Assembly: GCF_002924445.1 (NCBI RefSeq)
Contig: NZ_PIGG01000045.1
Location: 1 to 64,000 of the forward strand
Length of the DNA: 64,000 nt
Source: Minwuia thermotolerans
GTDB lineage: Bacteria; Pseudomonadota; Alphaproteobacteria; Minwuiales; Minwuiaceae
Direction of reading: 5' to 3'
The notes beneath the pieces are model-generated. The model was not told the origin of the DNA. It searched no databases and was given only the letters and a program-made list of their open reading frames with translations. Below are positions 13,411 through 33,096 of the stretch, one piece after another. A program made the position numbers and the translations under genes. Each line of letters begins with the position of its first letter. The first letter of the stretch is position 1.

Positions 13411-15099
13411 TCAGGCGGCCCGGATCCGTTCCAGGAAAGTGGAGACCTGACCGTTCAGGGAATCGAACTGGCCATTCAGGTTGGCCGCCGCATCGGAGAC
13501 GATCCGGACCGAAGCCCCGGTCTCGTCGATCCGGGCATGAATCGATCGGATGGTCTGCACGGTCTCCTGCACCGCCGACGCAGCCTCCTGCGCGCTCCGT
13601 GAGATCTCGTGGGTGGCCGCCCCCTGTTCCTCGACAGCCGCGGCAATGGAGGAGGTCACCGAATCCACTTCGCGGGTGGTCTCGGCGATGCGGGCGATGG
13701 CGGCCACAGCCTCGTTGGTCGCGCCCTGGATGGCGGCAATCTGCTCGCCGATGTCCTCGGTCGCCCGCGCGGTCTGGTTGGCCAGGGTCTTGACCTCGGC
13801 GGCGACGACGGCAAAGCCCTTCCCCGCCTCGCCCGCTCGGGCGGCCTCGATGGTGGCATTCAGCGCCAGCAGATTGGTCTGGCCGGCGATGTCCTGGATC
13901 AGGCCGACGACAGCGCCGATGCGATCGGCGGCCTCGGCCAGCGACCTGACCCGATGGCTGGTGTTCTGCGCGGTTTCGGTCGCGCCCTTGGTCATCTGCA
14001 CCGAATCCGCCAGCCGGCGATTGATCTCGGAGATCGAGCTGCTCAGTTCCTCCGCCGCGGCCGCGACGGCTTCGACCGCCGAGCTTGTGCGCTCCGACGA
14101 CTCGGTCACTGCACCGGCTTCGTCGAGCGCCTGGCTGGCAACGTCGACAAGCTGCATGGACGTGCCCCGCATCTCGGTCACCGCGCCGGTCACGTTGTCG
14201 ACTACCACCCTGACCGAGGAATCGAACTCGCCGGACAGGCTGAGGCGCGCCTGGCGGCGCTCCTCCGAGGCGGCGCGCAGCTGGCGCTCCTGATCGGCAT
14301 GCAATCGCTTCACTTCAAGGGCGTTTTCCTTGAAGACCAGCACCGCATCGGCCATCCGGCCCAGTTCGTCGGCGCGGCCCGTGCGCGGCACTTCGACGTC
14401 CAGATCGCCGTCGGCCAACCGCCTCATCGTCACCGACAGCGCCTCCAGAGCGCGGACGATCCCGGTCGTGATGAAGGCCGCCAGCGGCAGGATGATCAGC
14501 ATCGCGGCGAGCGCGGTCACGATGGATTCCGTCAGGGAGCCGTCGATCGCGCTGCCGGCCTCGGACAGCCGTTGGTTCAGCAAGGCCTGGCCCCTGGCCT
14601 CGATCGTGGCGAGGGACGCGCCCAGGCGGTCGCCGGCCTGATCGACGACATCGTCGATGCGCGCGAATTCGGCCTCGCTGGCGCCGCTTTCGATCGCCTG
14701 CCGCAGATCGGTCCGGATCGCCGTCGTCACATCCTCGAAGTCTGCCGCCAGTGTGCCCGCCGCGTCCTCGGCGCCCAACTCGCGTCCAAGGGATTCGATC
14801 GCCGGCAGGTTCTCGCCGAGATGGGCGACGGCCGCGTCGATGACCTCGGCCCGTTCGGGCCGGACCTGGCCTTCGGTCTTGTCGATGATCGAGTCCATCG
14901 CCGCCAGCAGCATGGCGCCGTTCTCCAGCCGCGCCTGGCTGACCATGGCGATGGAACGGCTGAGTTCGGCGGCCTGGCGCGTCTTCGTCTGTACCGAAGA
15001 TGAGGCGAAATAATGGTTCGCGCCAAGTACCGCAATGGCCATCACCGCCGCCATCGACAACAGTAGCATCCTGTTCCTGATGGTCCATCTGATCTTCAT
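13411..15099 (-). CDS. Methyl-accepting chemotaxis protein with four-helix-type sensor
   Basis: 562 residues. ATG 15099 has GGAGG 8 bases upstream. The first helix is at about 9-29. A periplasmic helical segment follows (about 30-190, of the size of a four-helix-bundle sensor), then a second helix near 193-215, a HAMP domain ([20 protein letters not shown]) and the signalling domain with the hairpin core [20 protein letters not shown]. It ends in FLERIRAA, like the three tandem receptors at 26-33 kb, but its sensor is unrelated to their NIT domain. No pentapeptide tether for CheR is visible. The ligand cannot be inferred. Confidence 0.93.
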
Positions 15100-15209
15100 G
15101 AAACTCGCCTCCGGATCAATGTTCCGGATCGTCAATAACCGCCAAATCTTGCCTGATTGTTAAGTGACCGACGGAAAGATTGCGGCGTGACGAGTGGGAC
15201 CGGGGCGGA

Positions 15210-26060: not shown

Positions 26061-26155
26061 GTACAAGACAGTTATCCAAATAAAAAATCAAGTTACTTCG
26101 CAATTTTTACTTCTTTATATTTGTCCTTCAAGAATTGATTCAGTGTTTTTTCATA
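26061..26155. promoter_or_regulatory. AT-rich region upstream of the chemoreceptor array
   Basis: The stretch contains long A/T runs (AATAAAAAATCAAG, AATTTTTACTTCTTTATATTTG) and lies within the 289-base divergent gap between the phosphoesterase and the first tandem receptor gene. It is the best candidate for the promoter of the array. I could not fit a confident flagellar sigma-28 promoter. Confidence 0.45.
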
Positions 26156-26232
26156 ACTCCCGGCTGATCATTGTGAGGTTCGCCGTCCTCCGGTTCCGGA
26201 GTCGGCTTGTCGCATCGCTGGGGAACCACACC

Positions 26233-28293
26233 ATGCTTCGTTTCGTCGACGACCTTTCGATCACCACCAAGGTCGCCCTCCTCTCGCTCCTGCCATTGCT
26301 GACGGCGCTCGTCTTCGCCGGCCTGGAACTGCGCACCCTGCGCCTGGCTGCGGCGGACGCCCATGTGCTGGCCGCCGCGGTGGACGCAACGCCACCGGTC
26401 CTGGTCCTGGTGCACGAACTTCAGTCGGAACGCGGCCGCTCCGCCGGTTACGCGGTTTCCGAGGGCAAGGCCTTCGGCGCGGGTCTGGCGGCCTCCCGGG
26501 CGCGCGCCGACAGCGCGGCAACGGCCCTGCGTCGCCATATGGAGGAGGACCCGCGTATCCTGGCGGTCGACGGCTTCGCGACGCCCTTTCGCAAGGGTCT
26601 GGCCGCGTTGGAGGAACTGCCGCGGGTCCGCGCGGGAATCGACAGCGGACGACTGGATGACGCCGCGATCGGCGCAGCCTATACCGGCGCGATCACACAC
26701 CTCATGACCGCCGTGGAAAGCGTCCACAAACTGGCCAACAACGGCCGGGCGGCTGAAGGCCTGTTCGCCTTCGGGGCGCTCATTGAAGGCAAGGAGGCCG
26801 CAGGACAGGAGCGCGCCGGTGGCGCTGCCGCGATCGCAAACGGCACGCTCGACAAGGCTGCGTTCCGCAAGCTGGCCCGGCTGGAAGGCAAGCAGATCGC
26901 CGACTGGGAAGAGTTCGTCCGCTACGCCGACCCTGTAAATGGCGAGCGGCTGCGCGCGGCGCTGAATGGCGAGCGGGTAACGGAGTTCCAGGCCCTGCGG
27001 GAGCGTCTGCATGCGACGCCGATGAACGGGACGATCACGGGCCTCGACGCCGAAACCTGGTTCGAATCGGCCAGCCGCCGCATCGACGCCCTGGAGGATG
27101 TCGCCGCCGCCGCAGCCGCGGATCTGATGGCGGCGGCCCACCGCGACGAGGACCGGGCCGAGCAGGCGTTCCGCCTCATTGCCGGCCTTGCCGCGGGTCT
27201 TCTGTTGCTGGTGATCGCCAGTTCCCTTCTGGTTGTCCGCTCGCTGCGCGGCGCGACCCGGCGCCTGGAAGGCACCATGTCCCGGCTCGCCGGCGGCGAC
27301 ACCTCGGTGGAGGTGCCTGACAGCCAGCGCCGCGACGAGATCGGCCGCATGGCCCGCGCCGTCCAGGTGTTCAGGGAGAACGCCATCGAGCGCATGCGGC
27401 TCGAGGCGGCGCAGGAGGAAGCCGAAAGACGGGCCGAAGCCGAACGCAGGCAGGCCATGCTCGAACTCGCCGACCAGTTCGAACAGGCGGTGGGCGCCAT
27501 CGTCCAGACCGTCTCCAGCGCGGCGACGGAACTGCAGGCCGCTGCCGAGACGATGACCGGGACGGTCGACGAGACCAACAGCCGTTCGGCCGCCGTGGCC
27601 AGCGCCTCGGAACAGGCTTCGGTGAATGTCCAGACCGTGGCCTCCGCGGCCGAGCAGATGTCGGCCTCGATCCGTGAGATCGGGCGGCAGGTCAGCGAGT
27701 CCTCGGACCGGGCGGGCAGCGCGGAGAAGGAGGCCGACGAGACGGTGGTGACCGTCCAGCAGCTTTCGGAGACGGCCGAACGCATTGGCCAAGTCGTGGC
27801 CCTGATCCGCGAGATCGCCGAGCAGACCAACCTTCTGGCGCTGAACGCGACCATCGAAGCGGCGCGCGCGGGCGATGCCGGCAAGGGCTTCGCCGTCGTT
27901 GCCTCGGAGGTCAAGTCGCTGGCCAACCAGACGGCGAAGGCGACGACCGACATCGCCGGCCAGATCCAGGCCATCCAGGCCGCGACCGGATCCTCGGTCT
28001 CGGCCATCCGGAAGGTGACCGGCGCGGTGAAGGAACTGAACGGCATTGCGTCCACCATCGCCTCGGCCGTCGAGGAGCAGACCGCCGTGACCCGGGACAT
28101 CGCCCGGAACGTGCAGCAGGCCGCGGCCGGGACTCAGGATGTTTCCGCCAACATCACCAACGTCACCGAAGCGGCGAGCCAGTCCAGCTCGGCGGCGGCT
28201 CAGGTGCTGTCGTCGGCCGGCGAACTGGCGCGGCAGGCGGCGAACCTCAACGACGAGATGAACAGCTTCCTCGCCCGCGTCCGCGCCGCCTGA
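26233..28293 (+). CDS. NIT-domain methyl-accepting chemotaxis protein, array copy 1
   Basis: 686 residues, start at ATG 26233. Helix 1 lies at about 13-35. A large periplasmic sensor (about 36-310) has the nitrate/nitrite-sensing (NIT) pattern [15 protein letters not shown] near its start and [15 protein letters not shown] in the middle. Helix 2 is at about 313-335 and the HAMP contains [14 protein letters not shown]. The signalling domain has [20 protein letters not shown]. It ends in FLARVRAA. The NIT family is known for nitrate/nitrite sensing in NasR-like proteins; the ligand here is open. It is the most divergent of the three copies in the sensor. Confidence 0.93.
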
Positions 28294-28318
28294 CCGGGCG
28301 GCCGCACAGCCGACGCGG

Positions 28319-28350
28319 AGGGGCTGCCGGCCGGCGGCCCCTTCCCTTTT
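28319..28350 (+). terminator. Terminator after receptor copy 1
   Basis: AGGGGCTGCC and GGCGGCCCCT (one G-U pair) form a 10-bp stem around GGCC, followed by TTCCCTTTT. This is a good intrinsic terminator 25 bases after the stop. Confidence 0.75.
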
Positions 28351-28583
28351 GACACGCAGCCCCGCCATGCGTCGGGTGCGGGGGCGATTTACGCTTTCTT
28401 CACCCGCCAAGCCCGATTTCTGTGCCGTCGCCGCAGCCGCCTGCCAGCCCGGTTCCGGAAGCCTTCCCCCTGACATGGTTTCACGAGTCCGGCGGCGAAC
28501 ACGGTCTCTGAAGACCTGAGTGCAATCGACGGCCGGATCGGCCCGGGAACGGGCGTCCTGCCGTACAGAAAACGAGTTCGCGT

Positions 28584-30644
28584 ATGAAACGATTCATTGA
28601 TCACCTTTCCATCACCATCAAGGTCGCCCTTCTCGCCCTGCCGCCCGTGCTGGCGGCTCTCGGGATGGTCGCCTCGGAACTGCTGCAGGAGCAGGAGCGC
28701 GCCGACAACGCACAGGCGATGAAGCGCATCGTCGAGATCGCCCCGCTGGTCTCGGACCTGGTCCACGAACTGCAGACGGAACGCGGCTTCTCCGCGGCCT
28801 ATCTCGGTTCCGGCGGTCAGGCCTTCGCCCAGACTCTCGATCCGGCGCGTCAGAAGACCGATCAGGCCCTGGCCTCGTTGCGGGCCGCAATCGAAACCGA
28901 TGACGCGGTACTCGGCAACGCGGCCTTCGCCGCGCCCTTCGAACAGGCCATGGCTGCACTGACCGGAATCGAGGACACGCGCCTCGGGGTCGGACGGATG
29001 ACGCTGTCGAGCGACGGCATGGCGGACTACTACTCCAAAGCGACCGACCACCTGCTGACAGCGGTCGAGAGCCTTACGGAAATGCCTCGGGAAGCGGACC
29101 TGACCCGTCAACTCACGGCCTATGTCGCGCTGATGCACGGCAAGGAAGCTGCAGGCGTGGAACGCGGCAAGGGCGTCGCCGCCTTCACCGCTGGCGGCTT
29201 CTGGGGCCCGCTTTTCAACGACTTTGTAGCCGCCGGCGCACGCCAGCGCGTGCACTGGAACACCTTTGCCCTGCTTTCCGACTCCGACAGTGTGAAATCG
29301 CTGCATTCGGTCGAGAATGGCCCGCTCGGCGCCGAGATCGGGCACATGCGCGACGTCGGGCGCGGCTACGTCGCCGGCGAGGACATCACCTCGGTCACCG
29401 GCAAGGCCTGGTTCGAAGCCGCCTCGGCGCGGATCGATGCGCTCAAGGCCGTGGAAGACGAGAAGGCCGGCTATCTGCTCGCCCAGGTCGACCAGGCCGC
29501 CGATGCGGCCAACAACGCCTTCACCACACTGGCGGTCGCCGCGGCGGCGCTGCTCGCGCTCGGTGTCGGCATCATGTTCCTGGTGTCGGGCTCGATCCGC
29601 GCCGGCGTGCGTGCGCTGACGGCGACCATGGGCGTTCTGGCGGATGGCCGGACCGACGTCGAAGTCGACGGCCAGAACCGCCGCGACGAGATCGGCCGCA
29701 TGGCCCGCGCGGTTCAGGTGTTCAAGGAAAACGCCATCGAACGCATGCGCCTGGAAGCCGAACAGGAGAAGGCCGAACAGCGCGCCGAAGCGAAGCGCAA
29801 GCAGGCCATGCTCGAACTCGCCGACCAGTTCGAACAGGCCGTGGGCGCCATCGTCCAGACCGTCTCCAGCGCGGCGACGGAACTGCAGGCCGCGGCCGAA
29901 ACCATGACAGGCACGGTCGACGAGACCAACAGCCGCTCCACCGCGGTGGCCAGCGCCTCCGAACAGGCGTCGATGAACGTCCAGACCGTGGCGTCGGCCG
30001 CCGAGGAGATGTCGTCATCGATCCGGGAGATCGGCCGCCAGGTCTCCCAGTCATCAAGCCGCGCCAATGCGGCCCAGCAGGACGCCGACGAGACGGTCCT
30101 CACCGTCCAGCAGCTCTCCGAGACCGCGGAGCGGATCGGCCAGGTGGTGGCCCTGATCCAGGAGATCGCCGAGCAGACCAACCTGCTGGCGCTCAACGCC
30201 ACCATCGAAGCGGCGCGCGCCGGCGACGCCGGCAAGGGCTTCGCTGTGGTGGCGGCCGAGGTCAAGTCGCTGGCCAACCAGACGGCGAAGGCGACGACCG
30301 ACATCGCCGGTCAGATCCAGGCCATCCAGGCCGCGACCGGAACGTCGGTCTCGGCGATCCAGAAGGTCACCAGCGCGGTCAAGGAGCTGAACGGCATCGC
30401 CTCGACCATCGCCTCGGCTGTGGAGGAGCAGACCGCCGTGACCCAGGACATCGCCCGCAACGTCCAGCAGGCAGCAGCCGGCACCCAGGACGTCTCGGTC
30501 AACATCTCGGGGGTCACCGAGGCCGCCACCCAGTCCAGCTCGGCGGCGGCGCAGGTACTGTCCTCGGCGGGCGAGCTGGCCCGTCAGTCGGCCAACCTGA
30601 ACGAGGAGATGCACGGCTTCCTCGCCCGCGTCCGCGCCGCCTGA
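28584..30644 (+). CDS. NIT-domain methyl-accepting chemotaxis protein, array copy 2
   Basis: 686 residues, identical in length to its two neighbours. It starts [19 protein letters not shown]. The periplasmic NIT-type sensor has [17 protein letters not shown] and [15 protein letters not shown]. Helix 2 is near 312-335. The HAMP is [19 protein letters not shown], then [20 protein letters not shown]. The signalling domain has [20 protein letters not shown], ending FLARVRAA. Its cytoplasmic half is nearly the same as copy 1, and the sensor differs more. No strong ribosome binding site precedes ATG 28584. A 290-base gap with its own terminator separates it from copy 1, so it is probably transcribed independently. 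Confidence 0.93.
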
Positions 30645-30675
30645 ACCGCGAAGGCAGCGCCTGAATACATCGTCG

Positions 30676-30703
30676 GGGCCGCCGGATGGAGATCCGGCGG
30701 CCC
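30676..30703 (+). terminator. Terminator-like hairpin after receptor copy 2
   Basis: GGGCCGCCGGAT and ATCCGGCGGCCC form a perfect 12-bp stem with a 4-base loop, followed by TTGTCGTTT. It lies 32 bases after the stop. Confidence 0.75.
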
Positions 30704-30978
30704 TTGTCGTTTGCGGTCAGGGACAAACCGGATTCCGGGGCCGTCCCGGGGCACCTCCCGACGATTTACCCAAAATTTACAGCCCCCGGCAAGGATACCT
30801 AATCAACCGGAGGGCCGTTCGCATCGATCGCCCCCGGAAGCACGCCCGGTCGGCCTGCAATGGTCGAAGCCGGGCAACGAAGGAGGCGTCGCGCGTCCGG
30901 GCATCCCGGCCGGAGGCCGGCGGATAACAAGAAGCGGCGGCCTGCCGGCCGGCGCCATTGCGAGGGGACTGGACAAAC
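30704..30978. other. Gap between receptor copies 2 and 3, no gene seen
   Basis: The 334 bases between stop 30644 and start 30979 hold the hairpin above, then a less GC-rich patch (CGATTTACCCAAAATTTAC, 30760-30780) that may contain the promoter of copy 3. Several GC-rich dyads follow, such as CCGGCC-GGA-GGCCGG near 30910. I found no convincing coding region or known riboswitch pattern. Confidence 0.4.
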
Positions 30979-33039
30979 ATGAAACGCCTGATCGATCACC
31001 TGCCCATCGTCGCGAAGCTGGCGCTGCTGGCGCTGCTGCCGCTCATCGGCGCACTGGCGCTGGTCACGATGGAACTGCTTCAGCAACGCCACACGGCAGA
31101 CCAGGCGAACAGGATCGCGAACATCGTCGAGGTCGCGCCACTGATCTCGGAGGTCGTGCACGAACTGCAGAAGGAGCGCGGCTACTCCGCCGGGTTCATC
31201 AGTTCCTACGGCGAGAAGTTCGCCGGTGAAGTCACCACGGTACGGGCCAGCACCGACAAGCAACTGAAGGCGCTCGAGACCGGACTGCCGGAGGACGATC
31301 CGGCCCTGCAGAACGAGAATTTCGCGCGGAACTACGCCCTCGCCCGGGAAGCGCTTGCCGAGCTGAAGAACACCCGCCGCGCCGTCGACGAGCAGATGCT
31401 CGGCACCGGCGAGATGGCGGCCTACTACACCGGCACCATCGACAAGCTGGTCTCTGCGCTCCAGAGCGTCACCCAGATTCCCGAGGAAGGCCATCTGACC
31501 CGCAACCTTACCGCCTTCTCCGCGTTGCTGCGCGGCAAGGAGGCCGCCGGCCAGGAGCGCGCCATGGGCGCTGCCGGCTTCAGCGGCGGCGCCTTCTCCC
31601 AGCAGGGCTACACCAGCTTCGTCAGCCTGCAGGGCAAGCAGGAGGTCGAATGGGAGACCTTCCGCATGACGGCCGAGCCGGCGATGACCGAGGCGCTGGA
31701 CGCGATGCTGGCCGGCGACACCAGCATGACGGTCGAGCAGATGCGGGAACTGGCGCGGGGCTGGCCCTTCGGCGCCTCGCTCGCCGATGTGAGCGACGCC
31801 GACTGGTTCCAGGCTTCCACCAGGCGGATCGACGACCTGAAGGCGATCGAGGATCGGCTCGCCGCCAACCTCATGGAACAGGTCAACAGCGCCGAGAGCG
31901 CGGCCTCCGGCTACTTCTGGCTGCTCGCCGCGGTCGCGGCCGGCCTGCTGGCGCTCTGCGTGGGTTCCGCGGCGCTGGTCGCCGTCTCCCTGATCACCGG
32001 CATCCGCAGCCTGACAGACACCATGACGCGCCTCGCCGACGGCGACACGTCGGTTCACGTCTCCGGCCAGAAACGCCGCGACGAGATCGGCCGCATGGCC
32101 CGAGCGGTTCAGGTGTTCAAGGAGAACGCCCTGGAAAAGGCGCGGCTGGAAGCGGCCCAGGAAGAGACCGAGAAGCGCGCCGAGGCCGAACGCAAGCAGG
32201 CCATGCAGGAACTGGCCGACCAGTTCGAGGCCGCCGTCGGTCAGATCGTCCAGACCGTCTCCGCCGCGGCGACCGAACTGCAGGTCGCCGCCGAGACCAT
32301 GACCGGCACCATCGAGGAGACCAACACCCGCTCCACCGCTGTGGCCAGCGCCTCGGAACAGGCGACGATGAATGTCCAGACCGTAGCCTCGGCCGCGGAG
32401 GAGATGTCGTCGTCCATCCGGGAGATCGGCCGTCAGGCCGCCGAATCGTCGACCCGGGCCAAGACGGCGGAAACCGAAGCCGACGAGACAGTGCTCACGG
32501 TCCAGCAGCTCTCCCAGACGGCCGAGAAGATCGGCGACGTCATCTCGCTGATCCAGGAGATCGCCGAGCAGACCAACCTGCTGGCGCTCAACGCCACGAT
32601 CGAGGCCGCCCGCGCCGGCGACGCCGGCAAGGGCTTCGCCGTGGTGGCCTCCGAGGTGAAATCGCTGGCCAATCAGACGGCGAAGGCGACGACCGACATC
32701 GCCGAGCAGATCCAGGCCATCCAGGCCGCCACCGGTACCTCGGTCTCGGCGATCCAGAAGGTCACCGGCGCGGTCAAGGAGCTGAACGGCATCGCCTCGA
32801 CCATCGCTTCGGCGGTGGAGGAGCAGACCGCCGTGACCCAGGACATCGCCAAGAACGTGCAGCAGGCCGCCACCGGCACGCAGGACGTCTCGTCGAACAT
32901 CTCCGGGGTCAGCGAAGCGGCCACCCAGTCCAGCTCGGCCGCCGCCCAGGTACTGTCCTCGGCGGGCGAACTGGCCCGTCAGGCCGCCAATCTCAACACC
33001 GAGATGAACAGCTTCCTGGAGCGTGTCCGCGCCGCCTGA
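30979..33039 (+). CDS. NIT-domain methyl-accepting chemotaxis protein, array copy 3
   Basis: 686 residues from ATG 30979 (GAGGGGA about 11 bases upstream; the frame is open 7 codons further without support). It starts [19 protein letters not shown]. The sensor has [17 protein letters not shown] and [15 protein letters not shown], the [21 protein letters not shown], and the signalling core [20 protein letters not shown]. It ends FLERVRAA. The cytoplasmic part closely matches copies 1 and 2; the sensors have drifted most, suggesting duplication followed by ligand diversification. Confidence 0.93.
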
Positions 33040-33067
33040 ACGGACGCCTTCATCGACGGAATGAATC

Positions 33068-33096
33068 GGGGCCGTCGGCAGCATGCCGGCGGCCCC
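33068..33096. terminator. Hairpin between receptor copy 3 and the convergent hydrolase gene
   Basis: GGGGCCGTCGGCA and TGCCGGCGGCCCC form a 13-bp stem (one G-U pair) around a 3-base loop. The position between convergent genes (stops at 33039 and 33106) suits a bidirectional terminator. Confidence 0.65.

Follow-up and report, generated by a model that had tools for sequence, protein, structure and literature searches.

The window, a 64,000-nucleotide stretch of contig NZ_PIGG01000045.1 from Minwuia thermotolerans, contains three neighbouring chemoreceptor genes, here A, B, and C, all on the plus strand and each 2061 nucleotides long with its stop (Table 1). In each of the three proteins Pfam recognises a NIT domain, then HAMP, then MCPsignal, and on both counts the preliminary description of the locus was accurate. 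The NIT sensors score 146–191 bits against a Pfam cut-off of 24.9, and the HAMP and MCP signalling domains also exceed the Pfam cut-off. With sensor, HAMP, and signalling domains all recognised, A, B, and C are NIT-type methyl-accepting chemotaxis proteins (MCPs). MCP signalling domains number eight in the genome as a whole (G000), and its only NIT domains are the three within the array. A fourth MCP gene in the window, at 13411–15135 on the minus strand, has a HAMP domain without a NIT domain.

Table 1. Features of the chemoreceptor array, in window coordinates
Feature	Position	Strand	Remarks
Chemoreceptor gene A	26233..28293	+	2061 nt with stop = 686 aa; NIT - HAMP - MCP signalling
NIT sensor domain of A	26407..27126	+	E 2.8e-43
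MCP signalling domain of A	27691..28185	+	domain search
GC-rich hairpin after A	28319..28342	+	likely terminator; sequence unchanged in sister species
Chemoreceptor gene B	28584..30644	+	2061 nt with stop = 686 aa; NIT - HAMP - MCP signalling
NIT sensor domain of B	28755..29462	+	E 3.3e-47
MCP signalling domain of B	30042..30530	+	domain search
Hairpin after B	30675..30704	+	terminator-like, 13 pairs; stem kept in sister species
Chemoreceptor gene C	30979..33039	+	2061 nt with stop = 686 aa; NIT - HAMP - MCP signalling
NIT sensor domain of C	31150..31872	+	AlphaFold model; best PDB match NasR 4akk
MCP signalling domain of C	32434..32931	+	domain search
Hairpin after C	33068..33096	+	sister species: stem kept, bases changed

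Aligned with MAFFT, the three proteins fill 686 columns with zero gaps, and their gap state is identical throughout an alignment of 52 NIT sensors. The sensors do differ, as first described, with protein identity of 34–39% over residues 36–305. Close to residue 360 identity climbs, reaching 86–90% at the protein level and 83–87% at the DNA level over the signalling part (residues 421–686). The signalling halves are therefore alike, but the earlier wording, "nearly identical", overstates the resemblance. The identical length had been taken as pointing to recency. We counted lengths in 56 rows with a NIT score above 150 bits and a signalling score above 190 bits, excluding weaker rows; ten of these are the array rows or their copies, leaving 46 non-array NIT-MCPs. 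The core from the NIT start to the C terminus is exactly 646 residues, as in the array, in 23 of the 46, and the 60-residue link is the same as in the array in 41, with domain ends projected from an array-derived model. Thirteen of the 46 are closely related to a single Roseomonas-type receptor, and without them 10/33 share the 646-residue core. The shared length of 686 largely reflects how receptors of this type are normally built; it is real but uninformative on age, and equal length is ruled out as a mark of recency.

A second species of the genus (the sister species, G003) carries the same three genes in the same order, of the same length and with the same flanks. Among the nine family genomes, NIT domains occur in four and the array in two, G000 and G003, and its age is read from these two array-bearing genomes. 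Close orthologues of the flanking hydrolase exist in the five other genomes of the genus, where, unlike in G003, the other tested array neighbours do not adjoin it; the sequence pieces of G005 and G007 end close by. Gain and loss could equally account for the absence of the array from these five genomes. CheW was found in three of the seven genus genomes (G000, G003, and G005), and chemotaxis seems patchy across the genus. In the other four (G004, G006, G007, and G008) we found neither CheW nor any receptor matching those of the array. Between C and an alpha/beta hydrolase, the sister species has a gene of metallo-beta-lactamase fold (L012 12695–13444, minus strand), and the window has just 66 bases at that position. 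No triple NIT array in a distant taxon, which would have indicated an ancient arrangement, was found among the matches listed for 385 class genomes, with no more than five candidates scored per genome; the evidence against recency comes from the sister species. Desertibaculum subflavum (L034 500–7209) has three tandem MCPs whose signalling halves are 82–89% identical and whose sensors differ (NIT, 4HB/TarH, and none recognised).

Folding predicts strong stems for the GC-rich hairpins past all three stops, in agreement with the preliminary description, and all three stems are conserved in G003. Fold z-scores for the stretches after A, B, and C are -1.29, -3.82, and -2.73; the stretch after A is unexceptional for its composition, and those after B and C clearly beat shuffled sequence. 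Among the three, the post-B hairpin alone passed a terminator scan. A sigma-70 scan for promoters found none. The regions upstream of A, B, and C are well conserved gene by gene between G000 and G003, and a short-word comparison among the regions of the three genes gave matches of at most 13 bases. Because these regions are kept between species but unlike among the genes, it is plausible that A, B, and C each have their own control. Upstream of A, positions 26070–26160 are AT-rich within a region of about 68% GC, and most of this stretch is conserved in the sister species.

The array had been read as a recent expansion, a view that its presence in a second species and the silent sites contradict. 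Orthologue dS between G000 and G003 is 0.09–0.21 overall (sensor 0.13–0.21, signalling part 0.09–0.14), against 0.39–1.22 for paralogues; with paralogue pairs across both genomes included, paralogue dS is 0.76–1.22 in the sensor and 0.35–0.61 in the signalling part. The high values are near saturation and rough only. At fourfold sites, counted at conserved residues of the signalling part, identity is 94/155 for A–B, 82/145 for A–C, and 103/149 for B–C, pooled 279/449 (0.62), with B and C sharing more bases than A shares with either. As yardsticks, 11 pairs of old MCP paralogues involving E, F, H, and I share 454/897 (0.51), eight orthologue pairs share 0.83–0.93, and about 0.46 is expected from codon usage. 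The silent sites of the A, B, and C signalling halves are much nearer saturation than the orthologue level. Silent divergence so far above that of orthologues puts the triplication at several times the age of the split between the two species.

We then consider how the three genes are related. In separate phylogenies of the two halves, as the preliminary description had proposed, the A, B, and C sensors group in a single clade among 52 NIT-MCPs with support of 99/96, and their nearest relative is a receptor of a Stappia-labelled metagenome assembly (L025). Separate origins were not found; with one sensor clade set against outside relatives, the locus is a tandem paralogue array formed by duplication, and the claim of a common origin by expansion holds. 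It is very unlikely that the array was instead assembled by fusing three unrelated NIT sensors to one signalling module. Sensor exchange does seem to occur, because a further receptor, D, has no NIT sensor and yet a signalling half 80–82% identical to those of A, B, and C, and the Desertibaculum triple joins closely alike signalling halves to different sensor families. However, the three array sensors group together against 46 other NIT sensors and align gap-free. Receptor D (L016 989–2731; G000:C31 near 480609–481727) is unlinked to the array and is without a recognised sensor domain. The signalling tree, whose bootstrap had not settled, comprises 34 rows after 28 near-copies and very long branches were dropped from a 62-row quick tree; A, B, C, and D form one clade (100/100), within which D pairs with C (97/80). 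In an AU test on 18 rows, unity of the array without D was not rejected (p 0.137). The position of D with C hints at an old module exchange. It is possible, though doubtful, that the signalling half of D derives from gene C and was acquired before the species split, which would make the array a donor of signalling modules; if so, the locus would be a small workshop in which new sensors are fitted to a single proven output module.

The preliminary description also suggested ongoing gene conversion of the signalling part. Exchange after the species split should leave sites alike within a genome and different between genomes. In the signalling half, the numbers of such genome-grouping sites for A–B, A–C, and B–C are 0, 0, and 0, against 104, 138, and 109 gene-grouping sites; the N-terminal half gives 1, 1, and 0 against 441, 437, and 390. 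Paralogues within a genome are not closer to each other than orthologues are, as concerted evolution would have it. With no genome-grouping sites in the signalling half, this species pair gives no indication that gene conversion took place after the split. A permutation run test for older tracts compared A, B, C, and D, leaving out codons for different residues among the four; on the 123 silent polymorphic sites kept, of which 69 are the same in the two species, it gave nothing convincing, the lowest p being 0.04 (B–D) in one of 12 tests, uncorrected. Gene conversion is thus unsupported by the ortholog/paralog site patterns, the fourfold yardsticks, and the run test alike. That ongoing or recent conversion homogenises the signalling halves is extremely unlikely, despite the jump in protein identity near residue 360 and some identical DNA runs of 50–53 nucleotides in the pairs A–B or B–C. 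The site counts refute it for the time since the split, silent divergence of the paralogous signalling halves is several times the between-species value, and orthologues show the same protein-level contrast between halves.

An older event that predates the species split, with the signalling halves partly reset by conversion or recombination (B with C being the likeliest pair), would be consistent with B–C fourfold identity of 0.69 in the signalling half vs 0.55 in the sensor, and with the lengths of the maximum-likelihood (ML) trees of the two halves. We consider it unlikely, since the run test yielded no convincing tract, the silent quartet counts of 10, 10, and 7 for A, B, C, and D form a star-like pattern, and both trees place B, though weakly, with A rather than C. 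Selection offers another account of the contrast between halves. Summed residue differences between orthologues are 42/810 in the sensor vs 7/963 in residues 366–686, and between paralogues 520/810 vs 121/963. The Poisson-corrected sensor-to-signalling ratio is about 7 for both, although the orthologue ratio depends on seven signalling changes only. Because the two ratios are about the same, no more than present-day constraint is needed to explain the contrast. The array part of the ML trees measures about 3.7 for sensors vs about 0.19 for signalling, a roughly 20-fold difference, and this larger contrast leaves room for old partial homogenisation or for sensors that changed rapidly early on. 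The protein similarity of the signalling halves is best read as purifying selection, the probable cause of the observed rate pattern. The sensors are themselves now under purifying selection (orthologue omega 0.10–0.16, G000 vs G003), and 83/270 sensor positions have three different residues among A, B, and C, each fixed between species. Divergence of the sensing parts, as originally proposed, is upheld for sensors of common origin.

An AlphaFold model of the C sensor (residues 36–305), the gene for which the fold was tested, is all-helical with a mean pLDDT of 90, and its top PDB match is NasR (4akk, TM 0.90). The NIT domain of NasR also matches the array sensors in sequence (E 2e-31); NasR, however, is an RNA-binding antiterminator, whereas the array proteins are chemoreceptors with HAMP and MCP domains. 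The NasR pocket residues E175/R176, as named in PMC7496416, align with E193/R194, which are invariant in A, B, and C, the NasR chain numbering having been matched to the alignment by count. As candidate pocket residues, E193/R194 would suit a nitrate/nitrite receptor, but their presence does not prove binding. The residues beside them vary among paralogues and are fixed between species, which fits one pocket that may have three tunings. In Pseudomonas aeruginosa PA4520, which like A, B, and C has its NIT domain on a chemoreceptor, that domain bound neither nitrate nor nitrite (PMC6381276). Therefore, nitrate sensing cannot be assumed for the array.

The overall pattern has known counterparts. 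PctA, PctB, and PctC of P. aeruginosa are likewise three close paralogous genes with selection-kept signalling domains (>96% alike) and sensors that diverged after duplication (<56%; PMC6974571), but theirs are dCache amino-acid sensors, with less divergence in both halves, and those of the array are NIT sensors. Campylobacter jejuni Tlp2, Tlp3, and Tlp4 are also paralogous receptors with divergent, ~30% identical sensors and shared signalling domains (PMC9769880, PMC6433261). In these receptors identical signalling domains make up large repeats mediating chromosomal inversion (PMC6433261), whereas the silent sites of the array indicate no exchange since the split. Among the papers listed in literature searches on NIT receptors and MCP gene conversion, none dealt with this array.

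Taken together, our results make it highly probable that the array arose by old tandem duplication, followed by sensor divergence, with signalling kept by selection and no conversion since the split. One NIT-type receptor would have become three long before the two sampled species separated. Each all-helical NIT domain presumably senses a small ligand, perhaps anionic, and would signal via HAMP to a shared CheA/CheW pathway, CheW being present in the genome. A need for every receptor to fit one common receptor array and kinase may have kept the signalling halves alike. After duplication the sensors moved apart; because they are now themselves conserved, A, B, and C probably have distinct, fixed ligand preferences. 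The array is genuine but unremarkable as a group of long-established tandem paralogues, a pattern already known from PctA/B/C-like receptors, and it shows how chemoreceptors gain senses: the gene is duplicated, the output half is kept, and the sensor drifts and is then fixed. For tandem receptors with equal lengths and alike signalling halves, silent-site data are needed before recency or conversion is inferred. The A, B, and C sensors could also help define NIT ligands beyond nitrate. A tandem pair of NIT chemoreceptors lies in a Kordiimonadaceae assembly (L038 5455–10115), its two members identical at 118/259 sensor and 174/293 signalling positions.
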